From the IMG/VR virus record IMGVR_UViG_3300042860_001108, positions 1 to 64,000 of that record: a DNA stretch of 64,000 nt; one strand, given 5' to 3'. The DNA comes from a virus. Under the pieces are notes generated by a model. It was not told where the DNA came from and did no database searches. It worked only from the letters and a program-made list of their open reading frames with translations. Position numbers and translations under genes: made by a program. Shown here in pieces: positions 41,917 through 48,231 of this stretch (the stretch's first letter is position 1; each line of letters opens with the position of its first letter).

Positions 41917-41942
41917 TAGTGTCCAACACTGTACATTGTCAA
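41917..41942 (-). promoter_or_regulatory. Candidate promoter/operator upstream of the SSB operon
   Basis: Minus strand: TTGACA at 41942-41937 overlapping the helicase stop, then an inverted repeat AGTGT-TGG-ACACT at 41929-41917, 20 nt before the start at 41897. No good -10 lies 16-18 nt away, so the TTGACA may be part of an operator. The call is weak. Confidence 0.3.
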
Positions 41943-44383
41943 ACTGGCTTCGGCAACCCCCTTCCTGAAATTTCTTCTTCGAACAGCTTGACCAGCAGGG
42001 CGTTGTCGTCCACCTTGCTGGACAGGGCCTTGAACATGCGCTTCTCGACCGGCGACCCCTCGATGTGGATCACGGTGACCTTGTCGGAGTTCTGCCCCTT
42101 GCGGTCGGCCCGGGCGATGCACTGCACGTACTGCTCCACGCTCATCAGCGGGCCGTAGAAGATCACGGTGTCCGCAGCAGTCAGCGTGATGCCGTGTGCT
42201 GTGGCCTGGGGCTGCATGACCAGCACCCTCGGGTTGGGCTGCGTCTGGAAGCGCTTGATGATGTCGCCTCGCTTGGTCGCCGTGACCCCGCCGTGGATCT
42301 CCTCGCAGGCCACACCGTTCTTGGTGAGGAAGGCGCTGATGGTGCTGATGGCAGCGCGGAAGAGCGCGAACACGATGACCTTGCGGTCTGTCTGCTCCAG
42401 CGCCTCGAGCAGGACGTTCAGCCTTGGCGTGGCGTCGAACTCGACCACCTCTTGGTTGTCGGTGTAGGACACCCCGGTGCTGATCTGCAGGAGCTTGTTG
42501 AGCACGCCTGCTGCGTTCACGGCAGTGATCGTCTCGCCCGCAGCCATCGCCACCATCTGGTCGCGCAGCAGGTTGTAGTACTTGGCCTGCTGTGGGGTGA
42601 GCGGCACCTCACGTGTGGTCGTGAGCACAGGCGGCAGGTCCAGGCACTGCGCCTTGGTGAAGCGTATGGCGGGCTGCAGCGCAGCGTAGACCCGGTCAGC
42701 AGCGTCGGGCTTGGGAGCCCACTTGAACATGGTGATCTTCTGCATCACCTGATCGCGCCACGCCGTGTAGAACTTGGGCACGTTGGTCGGGTTGACCAGC
42801 CGAGCAAGACCGTACGCATCCACAGGAGACTGCGCAGCAGGCGTACCCGTCATCATCCACAAATACGTCTCTGGCTTGATGATCGAGTTCAATGCTTTCC
42901 AACGTCTTGTTTGTGGGTTCTTATATGCGTTGCAGTTGTGTACTACCCAGTGATCCCCAACAAGGTAGTTAGGTGTCCCTTCAACTTCGAGGTTGAAGAC
43001 ATCGACGCCGCCTGGGCATTCGATATACGAAACACTTTCCACCCAAGCGTCGCCAGTTTCGCTTCCTTCTTGCGATCCTGTTCTTGACGTGCCCGTGACG
43101 TGTGGCTGCTGCCATCCACTTCCAACCCCACCATCCGGTCGGGCCACGCGAAGTCGAGCTTGTAGTTCGTAGGAAAGCCGGGTTGCCTCCCGCCCAACGC
43201 TACTGGGTAGTTCCATACCCACCCCGCAGGCAAGACCTCGGAAATCAACCGCTCGGCTGGTGTCATACCCTGGCCGTTCCCGCCCCGTACTTTCGGCTTG
43301 TGACCGATGGCCTTCAGCGTTGCGGACAGCTTCGCTCGATGCTCCGCCGTTTTCGGACCCGTAGACCTGCCGCGTTGCTCGGGCAACATTTTGTTGAAGT
43401 AGCTGGCTCCGGGATTCTGAGAGTGGTATCTCTTCCGTGCGCAGGATTTCGAGCAAGTCAACCCAATCGGATGGTTGTTTGCCATACCCCACAACACTCG
43501 GTGCCGCAGATGGCGAAATTCCTGCCCGCAGGCAAGACAACTCAACACCAGACACGAGCCTTCTTCCCGCAAGATTCTTGGCGCAGATCCACCCTGCGTC
43601 GGTGAAGAAGGGGTGCTCAGGGGTGCACCGGATGACTTTTCCGTTTCCAAGTTTGACCTCCACCAATCGCGTAGCAGTATTGCGTACAAGACGGTTTATA
43701 GGCGCTATTCCGTCAGAAGTCAACACCCTGTCCCCGGGCTGAAGCTGCTCAATTGGGCGTCGTCCCAGGGGCGTAGCCACGAACGTGCCCGCCACAAAAC
43801 ACTCATCAACAATTACGAGGTCGAAACGCCCGTCGTTGTTCACCTCATTGGCAATCAAGTTCAGGCCCTCGTAGTTCGTGATGACGAACTCGTAGTCCTC
43901 CTGTATCAACTCGATGCGTCGCGCAGCCTGTGCGTGGTGGGCCACCACTGCGCTCCTGTGGATGACGGAGTTACCCAAGTCCTGCATCCATGCGCTGTGC
44001 ATGATCGACAGGGGGCACAGGATCAGGCACCGCCTGACCTCTCCGCGCTTCATCAGGTAGTCAGCCGCCCACAGGGCGCTGAGGGTCTTGCCCGTCCCGG
44101 GTTCTGACAGCACGAACGCACGCCGGTTGAACGTGAGGAAGGAGGAGGTCTCCTTCTGGTGGTCCATCGGGCGGTAGCGCCCAGGCCACTCATACCTCCC
44201 CTGGATGGGAGAGGGGACGTTCTTCACGCCCAGATTGCGCAGCACTCGAGCCTCATCTAACGACCAATAGACAGCGACTTGGTAGCCACCCTCGATGGGC
44301 AGCACCTTGTGCTTGGGGATGATGCTGTAGCGGTGCGGGTGTCGGGTGTTGAAGAGCAGTATGCGGTTGTCGAATATCTCCAC
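41939..44383 (-). CDS. SNF2-type DEAD-like helicase interrupted by an intein
   Basis: 814 aa before splicing. Exteins (residues 1-194 and 484-814, 525 aa joined) form an SNF2-like helicase: motif I SEPGTGKT (K99), motif II IVDE|CNAYKN, motif III MMTGTPAAQ, and motif VI QCIARADRKGQ. The intein (C195-N483) sits exactly between E194 and C484 in the Walker B motif, so unspliced protein cannot hydrolyse ATP. The spliced protein would remodel or unwind DNA during replication or recombination, as in other phage SNF2 proteins. It lies between SSB and HNH genes. Confidence 0.85.
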   Translation of the reverse strand: MEIFDNRILLFNTRHPHRYSIIPKHKVLPIEGGYQVAVYWSLDEARVLRNLGVKNVPSPIQGRYEWPGRYRPMDHQKETSSFLTFNRRAFVLSEPGTGKTLSALWAADYLMKRGEVRRCLILCPLSIMHSAWMQDLGNSVIHRSAVVAHHAQAARRIELIQEDYEFVITNYEGLNLIANEVNNDGRFDLVIVDECFVAGTFVATPLGRRPIEQLQPGDRVLTSDGIAPINRLVRNTATRLVEVKLGNGKVIRCTPEHPFFTDAGWICAKNLAGRRLVSGVELSCLRAGISPSAAPSVVGYGKQPSDWVDLLEILRTEEIPLSESRSQLLQQNVARATRQVYGSENGGASSEAVRNAEGHRSQAESTGRERPGYDTSRAVDFRGLACGVGMELPSSVGREATRLSYELQARLRVARPDGGVGSGWQQPHVTGTSRTGSQEGSETGDAWVESVSYIECPGGVDVFNLEVEGTPNYLVGDHWVVHNCNAYKNPQTRRWKALNSIIKPETYLWMMTGTPAAQSPVDAYGLARLVNPTNVPKFYTAWRDQVMQKITMFKWAPKPDAADRVYAALQPAIRFTKAQCLDLPPVLTTTREVPLTPQQAKYYNLLRDQMVAMAAGETITAVNAAGVLNKLLQISTGVSYTDNQEVVEFDATPRLNVLLEALEQTDRKVIVFALFRAAISTISAFLTKNGVACEEIHGGVTATKRGDIIKRFQTQPNPRVLVMQPQATAHGITLTAADTVIFYGPLMSVEQYVQCIARADRKGQNSDKVTVIHIEGSPVEKRMFKALSSKVDDNALLVKLFEEEISGRGLPKPV
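42935..43801 (-). mobile_element. Intein with out-of-frame nested homing endonuclease
   Basis: 289 codons. Block A CFVAGTFVATPLGRRPIEQL begins with the nucleophile Cys. Block B has VIRCTPEHPFFTDAGW (TxxH). Block F is VDVFNLEVEGTPNYLVG. Block G is DHWVVHN followed by Cys+1 of the extein. All splicing residues are present: C1, TxxH, penultimate His, terminal Asn, C+1. About 190 residues between B and F match no endonuclease in this frame. In the +1 frame the same DNA encodes a Vsr-like nuclease. Confidence 0.85.
42943..43548 (-). CDS. Vsr-like (EDxHD-type) homing endonuclease encoded inside the intein in another frame
   Basis: 201 aa from GTG 43548, preceded by AAGAAGG; the open frame reaches back to a TTG at 43689, and an ATG further in is also possible. 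Zinc finger CLACGQEF...LTCSKSCARKRYH, then a NUMOD3-like KTAEHRAKLSATLKAIGHKP. The nuclease core is NYKLDFAWPDRMVGLEVDGS, SSHTSRARQEQDRKKEAKLA and LGWKVFRISN. This is the Vsr/DUF559 fold of the EDxHD homing nucleases known from phage introns and from genes fractured by split inteins. Codons start 1 nt downstream of the intein's frame. The stop lies 8 nt before the intein end, so its last 33 codons overlap splicing blocks F and G. Confidence 0.75.
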   Translation of the reverse strand: MLSCLACGQEFRHLRHRVLWGMANNHPIGLTCSKSCARKRYHSQNPGASYFNKMLPEQRGRSTGPKTAEHRAKLSATLKAIGHKPKVRGGNGQGMTPAERLISEVLPAGWVWNYPVALGGRQPGFPTNYKLDFAWPDRMVGLEVDGSSHTSRARQEQDRKKEAKLATLGWKVFRISNAQAASMSSTSKLKGHLTTLLGITG

Positions 44384-44400
44384 TTGCTTTCTCCGTTGTT

Positions 44401-44640
44401 TTACTTGCCGTTGTCCGCTTGGTTTGCTTTGCGGCTTCTCAGGCGTGTGTTCCCCGGGGTGCTCTTGCCACCCTTGCGCAGCGGTGTGACGTGGTCGATG
44501 TCCTTGCCTGCGCGGTCCACACCAGCCTTGTCGTAGGCCCTGCGTGCGCGTTGGCGCTCGATCTGATCGGCGGTCTCTCCGGTCGCCTTCTGCAGCTTGT
44601 ACGCGTGCTTGTAGTCACGCTTGCCGTTGACTTGAGTCAT
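44401..44640 (-). CDS. HNH endonuclease, small
   Basis: 79 aa. Basic helix (MTQVNGKRDYKHAYKLQKAT, then IERQRARRAYDKAG) followed by GKDIDHVTPLRKGGKSTPGN and TRLRSRKANQADNGK: the D-H ... N ... N pattern of a compact HNH nuclease without structural cysteines. Such proteins in replication modules may nick DNA in recombination or packaging. It overlaps the gene upstream by 26 nt. Confidence 0.75.
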   Translation of the reverse strand: MTQVNGKRDYKHAYKLQKATGETADQIERQRARRAYDKAGVDRAGKDIDHVTPLRKGGKSTPGNTRLRSRKANQADNGK

Positions 44641-44782
44641 TTAATCGCTCCTCTGCTAGTCGCACTAGTCCCGCCGCCATTTCTGGAAAAGCGTCGTTTA
44701 GCTTCCGCATAAACAGACGTACCCAGTCATCGTCGTCCAAGGGGATACTTTTCATTATGTCCACTAGCTCCTGTCGTGTCAT
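44615..44782 (-). CDS. Small acidic/helical protein, unknown
   Basis: 55 aa, AAGGAGAAGCATC before ATG. It reads MTRQELVDIMKSIPLDDDDW, then VRLFMRKLNDAFPEMAAGLV and a charged helix. It overlaps the HNH start downstream by 26 nt and the HTH gene upstream by 4 nt, so it is embedded in a coupled string. AT-richer than nearby replication genes. Function unknown. Confidence 0.65.
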   Translation of the reverse strand: MTRQELVDIMKSIPLDDDDWVRLFMRKLNDAFPEMAAGLVRLAEERLNDSSQRQA

Positions 44783-45103: not shown

Positions 45104-45775
45104 TCAACTCCTCTTCGTATTGAACGTACAGTCTTTGACGGGGCACCATCCGCACAGCGGGCTCTGTGAGGGGTTCCACACGTCGAACTCGTGCGCTGCC
45201 TCGAGCTTGGCAACGCGCTCCCGGTAGTCCCACCACGCAGCCTCTGCGTCTTCGTAGGACATCTTGTGCTTGACCATGCTGCCCTTGACGATGAAGAACA
45301 GGGCAGACGAGACAGAGCGGATGTGGGGGAAGTGGGCAAACACCATTAGGGACATCAGCGTTAGCTGGTCCCTGTCTGGATACTTGTCATTGCCCGTCTT
45401 CCAGTCCACCACCCGGGCCGTCAGGTTGTCGTCATCCACGATGAGCAGGTCCGCGATGCCGCGCACCCACCTGTCGTCAGACTTGAAGTCACAGGGTCGC
45501 AAGTCCTTGGTCAGCGCCATCTCATGCTCGAACAGCTTCCTCCCGGGCTTGGCAAGGAGAACATCTACCACAGGCTGGAAGATCACGAACTCTGGCGGCA
45601 GCGGTGTGCCGTCACGCCCGTAGTCCTCGATGGCCTTGTGAACATCCTTGCCGTAGATGGTGTGCTTGGTGTCTGTGAACGGGAAGCGCTTCAGCACCGT
45701 CACTTCGTGATACTGCCGCGCACACTGCTCAAACTTCTTCAGGCCTGAATGGCTCCAAGTGACTGCGTTACCCAT
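45104..45775 (-). CDS. PD-(D/E)xK exonuclease, Cas4/RecB-like with Fe-S cysteines
   Basis: 223 aa from ATG 45775 (GGAGATCTA upstream). SHSGLKKFEQCARQYH supplies the first cysteine. GIADLLIVDDDN then ARVVDWKTG is the catalytic D...DxK. The C-terminus PLCGWCPVKDCTF supplies three more cysteines, the 4Fe-4S arrangement of Cas4/AddB-type nucleases. It likely processes DNA ends with the SSB and helicase encoded downstream. Start overlaps the upstream stop (TAATG). Confidence 0.85.
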   Translation of the reverse strand: MGNAVTWSHSGLKKFEQCARQYHEVTVLKRFPFTDTKHTIYGKDVHKAIEDYGRDGTPLPPEFVIFQPVVDVLLAKPGRKLFEHEMALTKDLRPCDFKSDDRWVRGIADLLIVDDDNLTARVVDWKTGNDKYPDRDQLTLMSLMVFAHFPHIRSVSSALFFIVKGSMVKHKMSYEDAEAAWWDYRERVAKLEAAHEFDVWNPSQSPLCGWCPVKDCTFNTKRS

Positions 45776-46074
45776 TAGATCTCCGATGTGTTGATGACCT
45801 CGTTGAGCCGGTTGGCAAAGCGTGTGACGAACTTCTCGTTGTTCCACAGCCGGTGGTTCATGTCCTGCAAGATGGCGTGAGTGACCTCGTGCCAGAAGGT
45901 GTCGGACACCTCCTCGGTCTTGAACGACCGGCCCGTCAGGTTGCTGGTGGTGGCGATGGTGACCACACGCGTGTCGTGGTCCACCTCACCCATGTGCCCC
46001 CGGCAGGGCATCGTGTCCACCATGCGCACGGTGAACGTCTTGTTACTGAGTTTGAACTTCTTGGGGGTTTGCAA
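45775..46074 (-). CDS. Small zincin-type (HExxH) metalloprotein
   Basis: 99 aa from a TTG start at 46074 preceded by AAGGAGAAAGCC; the longer frame lacks a better start and overlaps the upstream gene out of frame. After FKLSNKTFTVRMVDTMPCRG comes EVSDTFWHEVTHAILQDMNH, a canonical HExxH, then a helix NEKFVTRFANRLNEVI carrying a possible third ligand. It may be a protease or a metal-binding remnant of one. It sits between nuclease and polymerase genes, an unusual place for a protease. Confidence 0.7.
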   Translation of the reverse strand: MQTPKKFKLSNKTFTVRMVDTMPCRGHMGEVDHDTRVVTIATTSNLTGRSFKTEEVSDTFWHEVTHAILQDMNHRLWNNEKFVTRFANRLNEVINTSEI

Positions 46075-46255
46075 AGGCTTTCTCCTTTTCTTCGAGTAAC
46101 GCAAGCGTGGCTTGCAGGATGCGGTTCTCAACACCCAGGTGAGTGGTGAGTTCACGCGCTTGTCCATACTTGCGCTCAAGGCACAGGTCGTGGATTGCTC
46201 GGGCCATGCGCTCGATCTCCATGAGCGGCATGGCGTAGTCGGTGATGGTGCTCAT
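46043..46255 (-). CDS. Small helical protein, unknown
   Basis: 70 aa. MSTITDYAMPLMEIERMARA, then IHDLCLERKYGQARELTTHL and a C-terminal coiled coil (ATLALLEEKEKAFANPQE). It overlaps the polymerase stop by 4 nt (ATGA), and its 3' end covers the ribosome-binding site of the zincin gene, implying coupling. Function unknown. Confidence 0.7.
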   Translation of the reverse strand: MSTITDYAMPLMEIERMARAIHDLCLERKYGQARELTTHLGVENRILQATLALLEEKEKAFANPQEVQTQ

Positions 46256-48231
46256 CCTTTTGCCAGTCCATATCGTCTGTTAGCACCGCCGTCTGCCGCC
46301 AGGGGAATCCCCGGCATGTAGCTCGGCTGCACGGTCATGCAGGCCAGAAGGTAGTCTTTGGCCTCATCTGCTTCACTCTCCGGCGCGATACACAACGCCT
46401 CGTCGTGCACGGTTCCACAGACCGGATACCGCTTTCCTATGCGCAGCATCCCATCAGTCATCACACAACGCGCCGTGCCCTGCACCACGTTGTTCGTGAC
46501 CTTGCCCGCGTAGAGCTTGCTTCGCTTGCCGTCCTTGCCGTCAGCGTAGCTCCACTGGACTCGGCCCTTCTCGTCTTGGTCAGGGCGGAGGTCAGGATAC
46601 CGCACAGACATGCCGCTTGGCAAGACGATTTCGCCCTTGCGGAAGGTCAGGCACTTGTGCGTGTACTCCTTGCCCTTGTACAGGCTGTGCTCGATGAGTT
46701 GCCCCATCAGTTCCCAGAAGTCCACGACCGGGGCCGAGGCCGTGCGGTACTTGTCGATGATGGCCTTGGCTGCGAGGCAGTGGATGGCAAGCTCGAGGTC
46801 GGTGCAGGTGTGGGGGATCTCCTCCATCTTCTTGAGGTTCTCGTCCCAGGACAAGAACTTCTGCACGTCAGCGCCGACAACGCCAAGCTGCTTCGCCTCT
46901 TCCCTTGAGTACCGCTTGGGTGGTGCACCGAGGAACCCAGTAAGCAACTGGGCCGCGAAGCTGGCCCAGCCTAGCTGGTAGCCCGCGCCCAGCAGGGCTG
47001 ACTTGGCCGACTGCCGCTCCACCGGGTGACTGTCCTTGGTCATGCCTGGGATACTGAACATCTGCGAACCGAACTGCGCGTAGGGATCACCACCAGCGCG
47101 GAAGATGTCGAGCAGCGCGTCGTAGTCCGCCAGCCACGCCAGCACACGCGGCTCGATCTGCGAGAGGTCACCGACCACGATGACATGTCCCTCAGGGGCC
47201 ATGATCGCCTTACGCAGAAAAGAGCCCCTCTTCAAATTCTGCATGTTGATCGCGCTGCCCTTGGCTGCAGTCCACCGGCCTGTGGCTGCACCGTAGTAAC
47301 TCAGGGGCACCGGCAGGTTGCCCCGGTCAGCAATGTCGAGGAAGCGCTGCGCTCGTGTGCGTTCGCTAGTGCTCTTGACCTTCAGTCTTGCTTCGCAGAG
47401 AAGAGCCACATCCTCATTCTCATGATTGAGCAGGGCCTGGAACAGTGCATCATTCTTAGCGAGAGCAAGCGTCTCTTCGCCTGTTGTCTTGCTGATCTTA
47501 GTCGGCGGATCGACCCCAAGTGCTTTGAGCGCTTGCGCAAATTGCGGGTTCGAAGCGAGAGTAGCTTCCACCATGCCGAGCTTTGCAAGGAGTCCTTCAC
47601 GTGCAGTCCTTTCTTCTTCAATCGCCTGCGCCAACATCTCCTTGTCAAGCTGCAGCAGCGGGCGGGTGTACATCTTCAGCGTCATGTCGATGAGCTTCAA
47701 CTCCTTGGTCGGGTAGCCCTCGATCAAGCGCAGGAAGATCTGCTCACACAGGTAGGTGTCGTGCTTGCAGTAGTCGGCAAGCTCTTGCTCGATGTGGAAC
47801 GGAATGCTCTCCAGCAGACCATCGGTGCTGTGCACCGCCTTGCCCTTGGGGGGAAGCTCGAACGCCTCGGCCAGCGTAGCCAGACTGTTGCCCACCTCCA
47901 CGCCACGCAGGGCGCGGCCCATGCTGAGCGTGTCGAAGATGAACGCGGGCTGGATGCCATAGACCCAGGAGAGGATCGTCACGTCGAACTGCGCGTTGTG
48001 GGCCAGCACAGCGGTGCGGGACCAGTCGATGCTGGACTTCCAGCGACCGATGCGGTCGCCCCTCACCCACACCGGGATCTCGTCGGTGCCGACGACCTTC
48101 CAGCACAGCCCCCACGCCTTGAAGCGCGGGTCGCGGACGTACTCTTCAGTAGTCATTTTGCTGAGCGTGTACTCTGCCCGAGACCATGCGGTCTCGAAGT
48201 CCAAGACGACGATCTTGTCGTAGGGTTTCAA
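46252..48231 (-). CDS. polA: DNA polymerase A family with 3'-5' exonuclease
   Basis: 659 aa. Proofreading exonuclease: VLDFETA (D11, E13), VLAHNAQFDVTI (D83), YCKHDTYLC (Y154, D158). Polymerase: motif A GDLSQIEPRVLAWL (D355), motif B RQSAKSALLGAGYQLGW (K410, Y418), motif C GTVHDEAL (D610). No 5'-nuclease domain. The residue equivalent to E. coli F762 is Leu414, and the following YG is YQ. It replicates the phage genome together with the primase-polymerase. Start overlaps the previous gene by 4 nt. Confidence 0.95.
   Translation of the reverse strand: MKPYDKIVVLDFETAWSRAEYTLSKMTTEEYVRDPRFKAWGLCWKVVGTDEIPVWVRGDRIGRWKSSIDWSRTAVLAHNAQFDVTILSWVYGIQPAFIFDTLSMGRALRGVEVGNSLATLAEAFELPPKGKAVHSTDGLLESIPFHIEQELADYCKHDTYLCEQIFLRLIEGYPTKELKLIDMTLKMYTRPLLQLDKEMLAQAIEEERTAREGLLAKLGMVEATLASNPQFAQALKALGVDPPTKISKTTGEETLALAKNDALFQALLNHENEDVALLCEARLKVKSTSERTRAQRFLDIADRGNLPVPLSYYGAATGRWTAAKGSAINMQNLKRGSFLRKAIMAPEGHVIVVGDLSQIEPRVLAWLADYDALLDIFRAGGDPYAQFGSQMFSIPGMTKDSHPVERQSAKSALLGAGYQLGWASFAAQLLTGFLGAPPKRYSREEAKQLGVVGADVQKFLSWDENLKKMEEIPHTCTDLELAIHCLAAKAIIDKYRTASAPVVDFWELMGQLIEHSLYKGKEYTHKCLTFRKGEIVLPSGMSVRYPDLRPDQDEKGRVQWSYADGKDGKRSKLYAGKVTNNVVQGTARCVMTDGMLRIGKRYPVCGTVHDEALCIAPESEADEAKDYLLACMTVQPSYMPGIPLAADGGANRRYGLAKG

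Follow-up and report, generated by a model that had tools for sequence, protein, structure and literature searches.

A phage helicase intein whose probable homing endonuclease is encoded in the overlapping +1 reading frame

Canonical inteins, such as PI-SceI, carry a homing endonuclease domain in frame with the splicing domain. Dassa and colleagues are said to have described, in 2009, fractured genes in which the halves of a split intein are separated by a freestanding EDxHD (Vsr-like) nuclease. Group I introns also carry EDxHD homing endonucleases, I-Bth0305I among them (PMC3943268). The closest precedent for the locus reported here is the ShiLan domain, or Pacc40 insertion, published in 2025, in which phage methylases harbour HNH endonucleases that are out of frame (Arsenault, Gosselin and Gogarten 2025, PMC11855218); as the host frame of ShiLan has neither splicing motifs nor an intein fold, its authors consider the insertion to be unspliced (PMC11855218). 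In the literature searched, out-of-frame nucleases within seamless phage insertions were represented only by ShiLan and a second methylase insertion (PMC11855218). No contiguous intein with a nuclease in an overlapping frame was found in the full-text literature searched, which covered few subscription journals, and this layout appears to be undescribed.

The window, a stretch of 64,000 nucleotides, was taken from a 67-kb IMG/VR virus record, and all the features described below lie on its minus strand. A first-pass annotation had placed a complete intein at 42935-43801 within an uninterrupted helicase frame, with a nuclease encoded over it in the +1 frame; the intein and its coordinates were found to be correct from its motifs and Pfam matches. 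The features of the locus were as follows:

41939-44383, minus strand: helicase open reading frame (44383-41939 in the coding direction), 814 amino acids, open through the intein
43802-44383, minus strand: N-extein of the SNF2/DEAD-like helicase (SNF2-rel_dom and ResIII in Pfam)
42935-43801, minus strand: the whole element, an in-frame intein of 289 codons (motifs, Pfam, empty sites)
43526-43801, minus strand: N-terminal Hint half (C1, block A and the TxxH block B), codons 1-92 (pLDDT, omega)
43559-43564, minus strand: AGAAGG, a possible, weak Shine-Dalgarno sequence 10 nt before the GTG at 43548
43545 (TTG) or 43548 (GTG), minus strand: candidate nuclease starts, the window's clade having an NTG two codons before the first zinc cysteine
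42943-43545, minus strand: EDxHD/DUF559-type nuclease in the +1 frame, 200 codons and a stop (Pfam, conserved residues, fold)
43441-43539, minus strand: nuclease zinc finger CxxC...CxxxC, residues 3-35 (four cysteines invariant in 27 relatives)
43015-43260, minus strand: nuclease catalytic core, residues 96-177, with E98, D131, E142, H148 and D157 (conservation, weak fold match to I-Bth0305I)
42943-43054, minus strand: shared tail, in which Hint blocks F and G and the nuclease C-terminus are read from the same bases
42935-43054, minus strand: C-terminal Hint half (blocks F and G, ending in HN), codons 250-289 (TIGR01443, intein_Cterm)
41939-42934, minus strand: C-extein of the helicase (Helicase_C), its first residue being the required C+1

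The 867-bp element interrupts motif II of the helicase, its DExx box, between DE and C. The minus strand upstream of the helicase carries a PD-(D/E)XK nuclease (45104-45847) and a family A DNA polymerase (46252-48231), which together with the helicase form a phage replication module. An open reading frame of 79 amino acids directly upstream of the helicase (44401-44640, minus strand) contains an HNH-like DHVTPLRKGG...N and had no Pfam match at an E-value of 0.001.

The element resembles ShiLan in being a mobile insertion with a stop-free host frame and an alternate-frame nuclease that ends near the end of the insertion, and in its zinc fingers and disjunct distribution. It differs in its host genes, in its site and in belonging to a family that spans many hosts; moreover, the out-of-frame nuclease of ShiLan is of the HNH type and has no splicing domains around it, whereas the nuclease here is of the EDxHD/DUF559 type and is surrounded and overlapped by a complete, conserved Hint intein. 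Fractured genes, found mainly in phages, likewise place a nuclease of this superfamily beside intein splicing domains; however, in those the host gene and the intein are split and the nuclease gene overlaps neither, whereas the helicase frame here is uninterrupted, the gene is whole, and the DNA is shared.

The intein frame begins with CFVAGT, continues through TPEHPFF (T60 and H63) and VFNLEVEGTPNYLVG, and ends in WVVHN, followed by C+1. Searched separately against profiles, the two frames gave different domains: Intein_splicing (5.6e-10) and Hint_2 (3e-9) in the host frame, and DUF559 (1.4e-6) and MTES_1575 (3.5e-7, under its curated cut-off) in the +1 frame. Pfam and NCBIfam placed intein splicing domains at both ends of the element in the host frame. 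C1, T60, H63, H288 and N289 were invariant in 27 aligned relatives, and C+1 was present in 38 of 38 aligned loci. The AlphaFold model of the intein frame, with pLDDT above 90 over codons 1-80, about 90 in the Hint halves and mostly below 50 in the linker, matched solved inteins and Hint domains in the PDB. A Hint fold with blocks A, B, F and G is thus in frame with the host protein; in the model, the stretch between the two halves looks like disordered filler.

DUF559 and MTES_1575, nuclease families related to Vsr, were matched by all 27 members of the family. The zinc ligands C3, C6, C31 and C35 were invariant among the 27 relatives, as were D131, E142, H148 and D157, and E98 was nearly so; the catalytic and zinc residues remained invariant across relatives as low as 31% identity. 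E98, D131, E142, H148 and D157 fit the EDxHD pattern in a Vsr/PD-(D/E)xK-like core, the letter-by-letter assignment being our own reading. I-Bth0305I (PDB 3r3p) was matched weakly by profile (E 0.013) and also by fold (E 0.009, probability 1.00, TM-score 0.30-0.56), the latter from a nuclease model of moderate confidence (pLDDT 69, pTM 0.43), and the fold matched viral DUF559/Vsr proteins as well. Sequence and fold therefore bear out the first-pass view that the +1 protein is a nuclease with a zinc finger and a Vsr/EDxHD-type core. Its claim of a NUMOD3-like stretch was only weakly supported, as NUMOD3 was matched by two of the 27 members (best E 0.012). The order of zinc finger, linker and nuclease is the typical layout of a homing enzyme.

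The nuclease stop codon ends at 42943, 8 nt short of the intein end at 42935, just as the first-pass annotation had read it. Its broader proposal that the nuclease lies over the splicing domain held for the C-terminal Hint half (blocks F and G) and the linker, which do overlap the nuclease, but not for the N-terminal half, which is clear of the conserved nuclease.

Both frames of the element were found to be conserved when relatives were compared. Stops expected in the host frame were estimated by shuffling synonymous nuclease codons; for 98 loci, 367 were expected and none was observed, whereas the unused third frame had 773 against 746 expected. For 29 relatives, the intein frame had no stops against 180 expected. 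No nuclease codon of the closer relatives ended in T where AA, AG or GA followed (0 of 1032), compared with 825 of 3298 elsewhere. Variability peaked at the third position of the intein frame over codons 1-80, at the third position of the nuclease frame over codons 101-260, and in the intein frame again over codons 261-289, and the exteins kept the helicase pattern throughout with no switch of frame. Omega, estimated by a four-class dN/dS count, was 0.16 [0.10-0.22] for the intein frame of the N-terminal Hint half and 0.92 for the nuclease-frame control there, which points to selection on the intein frame only in this part. In the middle segment, omega was 0.29 [0.23-0.37] for the nuclease frame and 0.75 [0.60-0.95] for the intein frame; we propose that here the intein frame mainly has to stay free of stops. 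The shared tail gave values with wide intervals (0.27 for the intein frame and 0.62 for the nuclease frame, 0.27-1.25, the latter not significant alone). By the counts of stops, the variability of codon positions and omega, both frames are maintained, and the second is under clear purifying selection, as the overlapping-frame proposal had anticipated.

These results bear on two other readings of the locus. One takes the element to be a group I intron, or another RNA-spliced element with a nuclease open reading frame, whose resemblance to an intein is incidental. Its attraction is that EDxHD nucleases occur in group I introns (PMC3943268). I-Bth0305I is carried by a self-splicing RNA, so its host frame need not stay open, yet none of the 367 expected stops is present here; in addition, the Hint motifs and fold and C1, TxxH, HN and C+1 are conserved, and the search for a group I ribozyme core gave no Rfam intron family match in 41939-44700. 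We regard an RNA-spliced element as extremely improbable. The other reading holds that the second frame is open by chance or survives as a decaying remnant. In GC-rich DNA, open frames often overlap, and nuclease loss does happen: L278 (3501 onwards) has lost the nuclease core and is now a mini-intein, yet it retains the nuclease tail that lies over the C-terminal Hint half, a consequence predicted from the sharing of bases. A remnant is nonetheless hardly credible in the face of the nuclease-frame omega of 0.29 and of residues that are invariant down to 31% identity, with no frame-broken copy having been found, and chance overlap was ruled out by the stop and selection tests.

The starts of the nuclease differed among clades. 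In the window's clade, an NTG codon (TTG, CTG or ATG) stands exactly two codons ahead of the first zinc cysteine; the start there is TTG, CTG or GTG with only a weak Shine-Dalgarno sequence, and so nuclease expression in this clade may be low or achieved by another route. The Pseudomonas and Vibrio phages have an ATG 2-5 codons before this cysteine and GAGG 6-9 nt upstream. A start with a Shine-Dalgarno sequence was found near the zinc finger in 24 of 78 loci, compared with 110 of 1260 internal control codons (p 1e-7, a value inflated by several candidates per locus). The nuclease could alternatively be made by a programmed +1 ribosomal frameshift as a fusion of N-extein, N-terminal Hint half and nuclease instead of as a separate protein. 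Such frameshifting would agree with the constant +1 position of the nuclease directly after the N-terminal Hint half, with a +1 frame that is open for 38-52 codons upstream of the zinc finger in many loci, and with the lack of a strong start codon in the window's clade. Against it, L118, L121, L128 and L136 have a strong Shine-Dalgarno sequence with ATG, L006 and L002 have TAA in the nuclease frame a few codons before their ATG, and in Vibrio phage Rostov M3 (L004) a nuclease-frame TAA stands two codons before the ATG, with GAGG upstream, so that scarcely any space is left for a frameshift. Because of these starts and the close upstream stops, we prefer internal initiation and consider frameshifting unlikely.

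When phage records were searched at the protein level, about 40 named phages proved to have the nuclease, mostly beneath coding sequences annotated as helicases or unnamed. Seven genomes were fetched (Pseudomonas phage MR14, Corynebacterium phage phi673 and five Vibrio phages), and the nuclease lay in the +1 frame of the helicase coding sequence; it was unannotated in all seven of the named phage records inspected. In 30 IMG/VR relatives with 47-100% identity, an open intein frame enters the DExx box after DE and before C and ends in HN before C, the nuclease is in the +1 frame, and the remaining frame has 9-35 stops. Nuclease-profile searches extended the family to very divergent relatives in viruses and in contigs from several bacterial phyla; a part of these contigs may be prophages or derived from viruses. 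Distant DUF559 matches ranking after L132, except L136, were not counted in the family; those examined were short matches with small open reading frames. The plasmid matches were likewise rejected, as they comprised distant DUF559-like proteins only.

After near-duplicates were removed, 100 nucleases from phages and from bacterial or archaeal contigs remained, 98 of which were in the +1 frame of a long host open reading frame. Like canonical inteins, these elements have the nuclease between Hint blocks B and F and would home into conserved motifs; however, the nuclease of a canonical intein is within the spliced polypeptide, and here it occupies a separate reading frame, L115 alone having it in frame. 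L115 (2322-5000) is an archaeal UvrD of Candidatus Methanosuratincola with the intein likewise between DE and C. Its in-frame form, the only one found, is possibly an ancestor or a derivative of the overlapping form, and the nuclease tree fits either. The second exception, L041 in a Leptolyngbya phage, is a freestanding nuclease; L041 and L042, the latter from a Rhizobium phage, are freestanding nucleases of the same superfamily located between tRNA genes.

The host genes included SF2, SNF2 and ResIII helicases, methylase-helicase fusions and DnaX, and the usual insertion point was directly after DE of the Walker-B/DExx motif. Contigs of Bacteroides (L128), Lachnospiraceae (L136) and Clostridia (L125) carry the same kind of element, and the hosts in L125 and L136 are DnaX-like (pol III gamma/tau) by Pfam. 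When the search was started from inteins instead of nucleases, 60 nuclease-bearing inteins were retrieved, and in all 60 the nuclease was in relative frame +1. No frame-broken nuclease beside an intact intein was found among the relatives searched, which agrees with the earlier proposal. Three candidates for broken nucleases (L286, L287 and L297) were dismissed, as the flagged stop is the nuclease C-terminus, where the profile overruns the stop. The Corynebacterium phages StAB and Stiles were rejected as fractured genes, since their helicase coding sequence is whole with the nuclease upstream, the nuclease coding sequence overlapping the helicase start. Also set aside were L301, L302, L308, L310 and L311, whose Hint-like N-termini occur in a different context and lack this nuclease, and L267, which is cut by the contig end. 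By sequence comparison, roughly a hundred divergent genes of phages and bacteria share the layout. The earlier reading of the locus is supported and understated: it had missed both the size of this conserved family, with its many host genes, and the look of disordered filler in the intein frame between the Hint halves.

Empty sites were abundant. The intein was absent from 59 of 61 close helicases, whose C-extein DNA had 73-100% identity in its first 300 nt. The residue at the +1 position of these 59 was Ala in 58 and Cys in one (L189), whereas invaded alleles have Cys after DE. L189 (around 1832) is thus an intein-free helicase with Cys where Ala is the residue in its relatives; this Cys may be a scar left by a lost intein. 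Between near-identical helicases with and without the insertion, mismatches tended to be higher in the 60 nt by the site than farther off, which is what co-conversion would give. The intein DNA of the window was 93% identical to that of L010, in helicases whose C-extein DNA was 61% identical, and so the element moves as a unit, as had been suggested; distances of the N-terminal Hint half and of the nuclease were correlated (Mantel r 0.68, 0 of 999 permutations, 94 loci), indicating that the splicing domain and the nuclease largely travel together. The raised flank mismatches and the unequal identities could also fit ordinary phage recombination.

The +1 nuclease might instead be expressed without homing, for example to attack competing phage or host DNA, with the intein kept passively. 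Such a role would suit a core that belongs to the broad DUF559/MTES_1575 nuclease superfamily and marginally matches Hhe, a defence protein. However, precise empty sites, changes in the flanks, the change of Ala to Cys at +1 and transfer between helicases of 61% identity are predictions of homing, and the arrangement of zinc finger, linker and nuclease is typical of homing enzymes; a non-homing role is, in our judgment, quite improbable.

By strong comparative evidence, the locus is very probably a mobile intein that combines in-frame splicing with an internally initiated homing endonuclease in the +1 frame. From the comparisons above, we infer protein splicing, nuclease translation, cleavage and homing in the following form. 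The intein would be two overlapping genes on one strand. The ends of the element, read in the host frame, would form a Hint domain that excises itself and rejoins the DExx box, preserving the host protein. The codons of the linker and the C-terminal Hint half, read in the +1 frame, would encode a zinc-finger homing endonuclease of the EDxHD type as a protein of its own, whose translation most likely begins internally, directly behind the N-terminal Hint half. This nuclease would cut the intein-free allele of the DExx box, leading to the copying in of the whole 867-bp element, with the +1 residue co-converted to Cys.

We also consider it likely that the family represents a class of inteins that is both large and ancient and has gone unrecognised. 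Such inteins would lie mostly at the DExx/Walker-B motif of phage and bacterial ATPases (helicases, DnaX and their relatives) and would use overlapping +1 frames of the same DNA to encode the splicing domain and the homing endonuclease as two separate proteins. As the C-terminal tail is common to both proteins and would couple them, the end of the nuclease could not be lost without destroying splicing. Such a layout would be new beside the in-frame intein domain, the intron open reading frame, the fractured gene and the freestanding homing endonuclease. It would explain the look of mini-inteins with odd disordered linkers and the absence of the nuclease from the annotation of the seven named phage records. 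As a natural example of dual coding, the family would pair a frame that mainly avoids stops with one that carries an enzyme, and its hundred or so divergent members could be used to test ideas about overlapping genes; the element would also supply nucleases aimed at conserved ATPase motifs.
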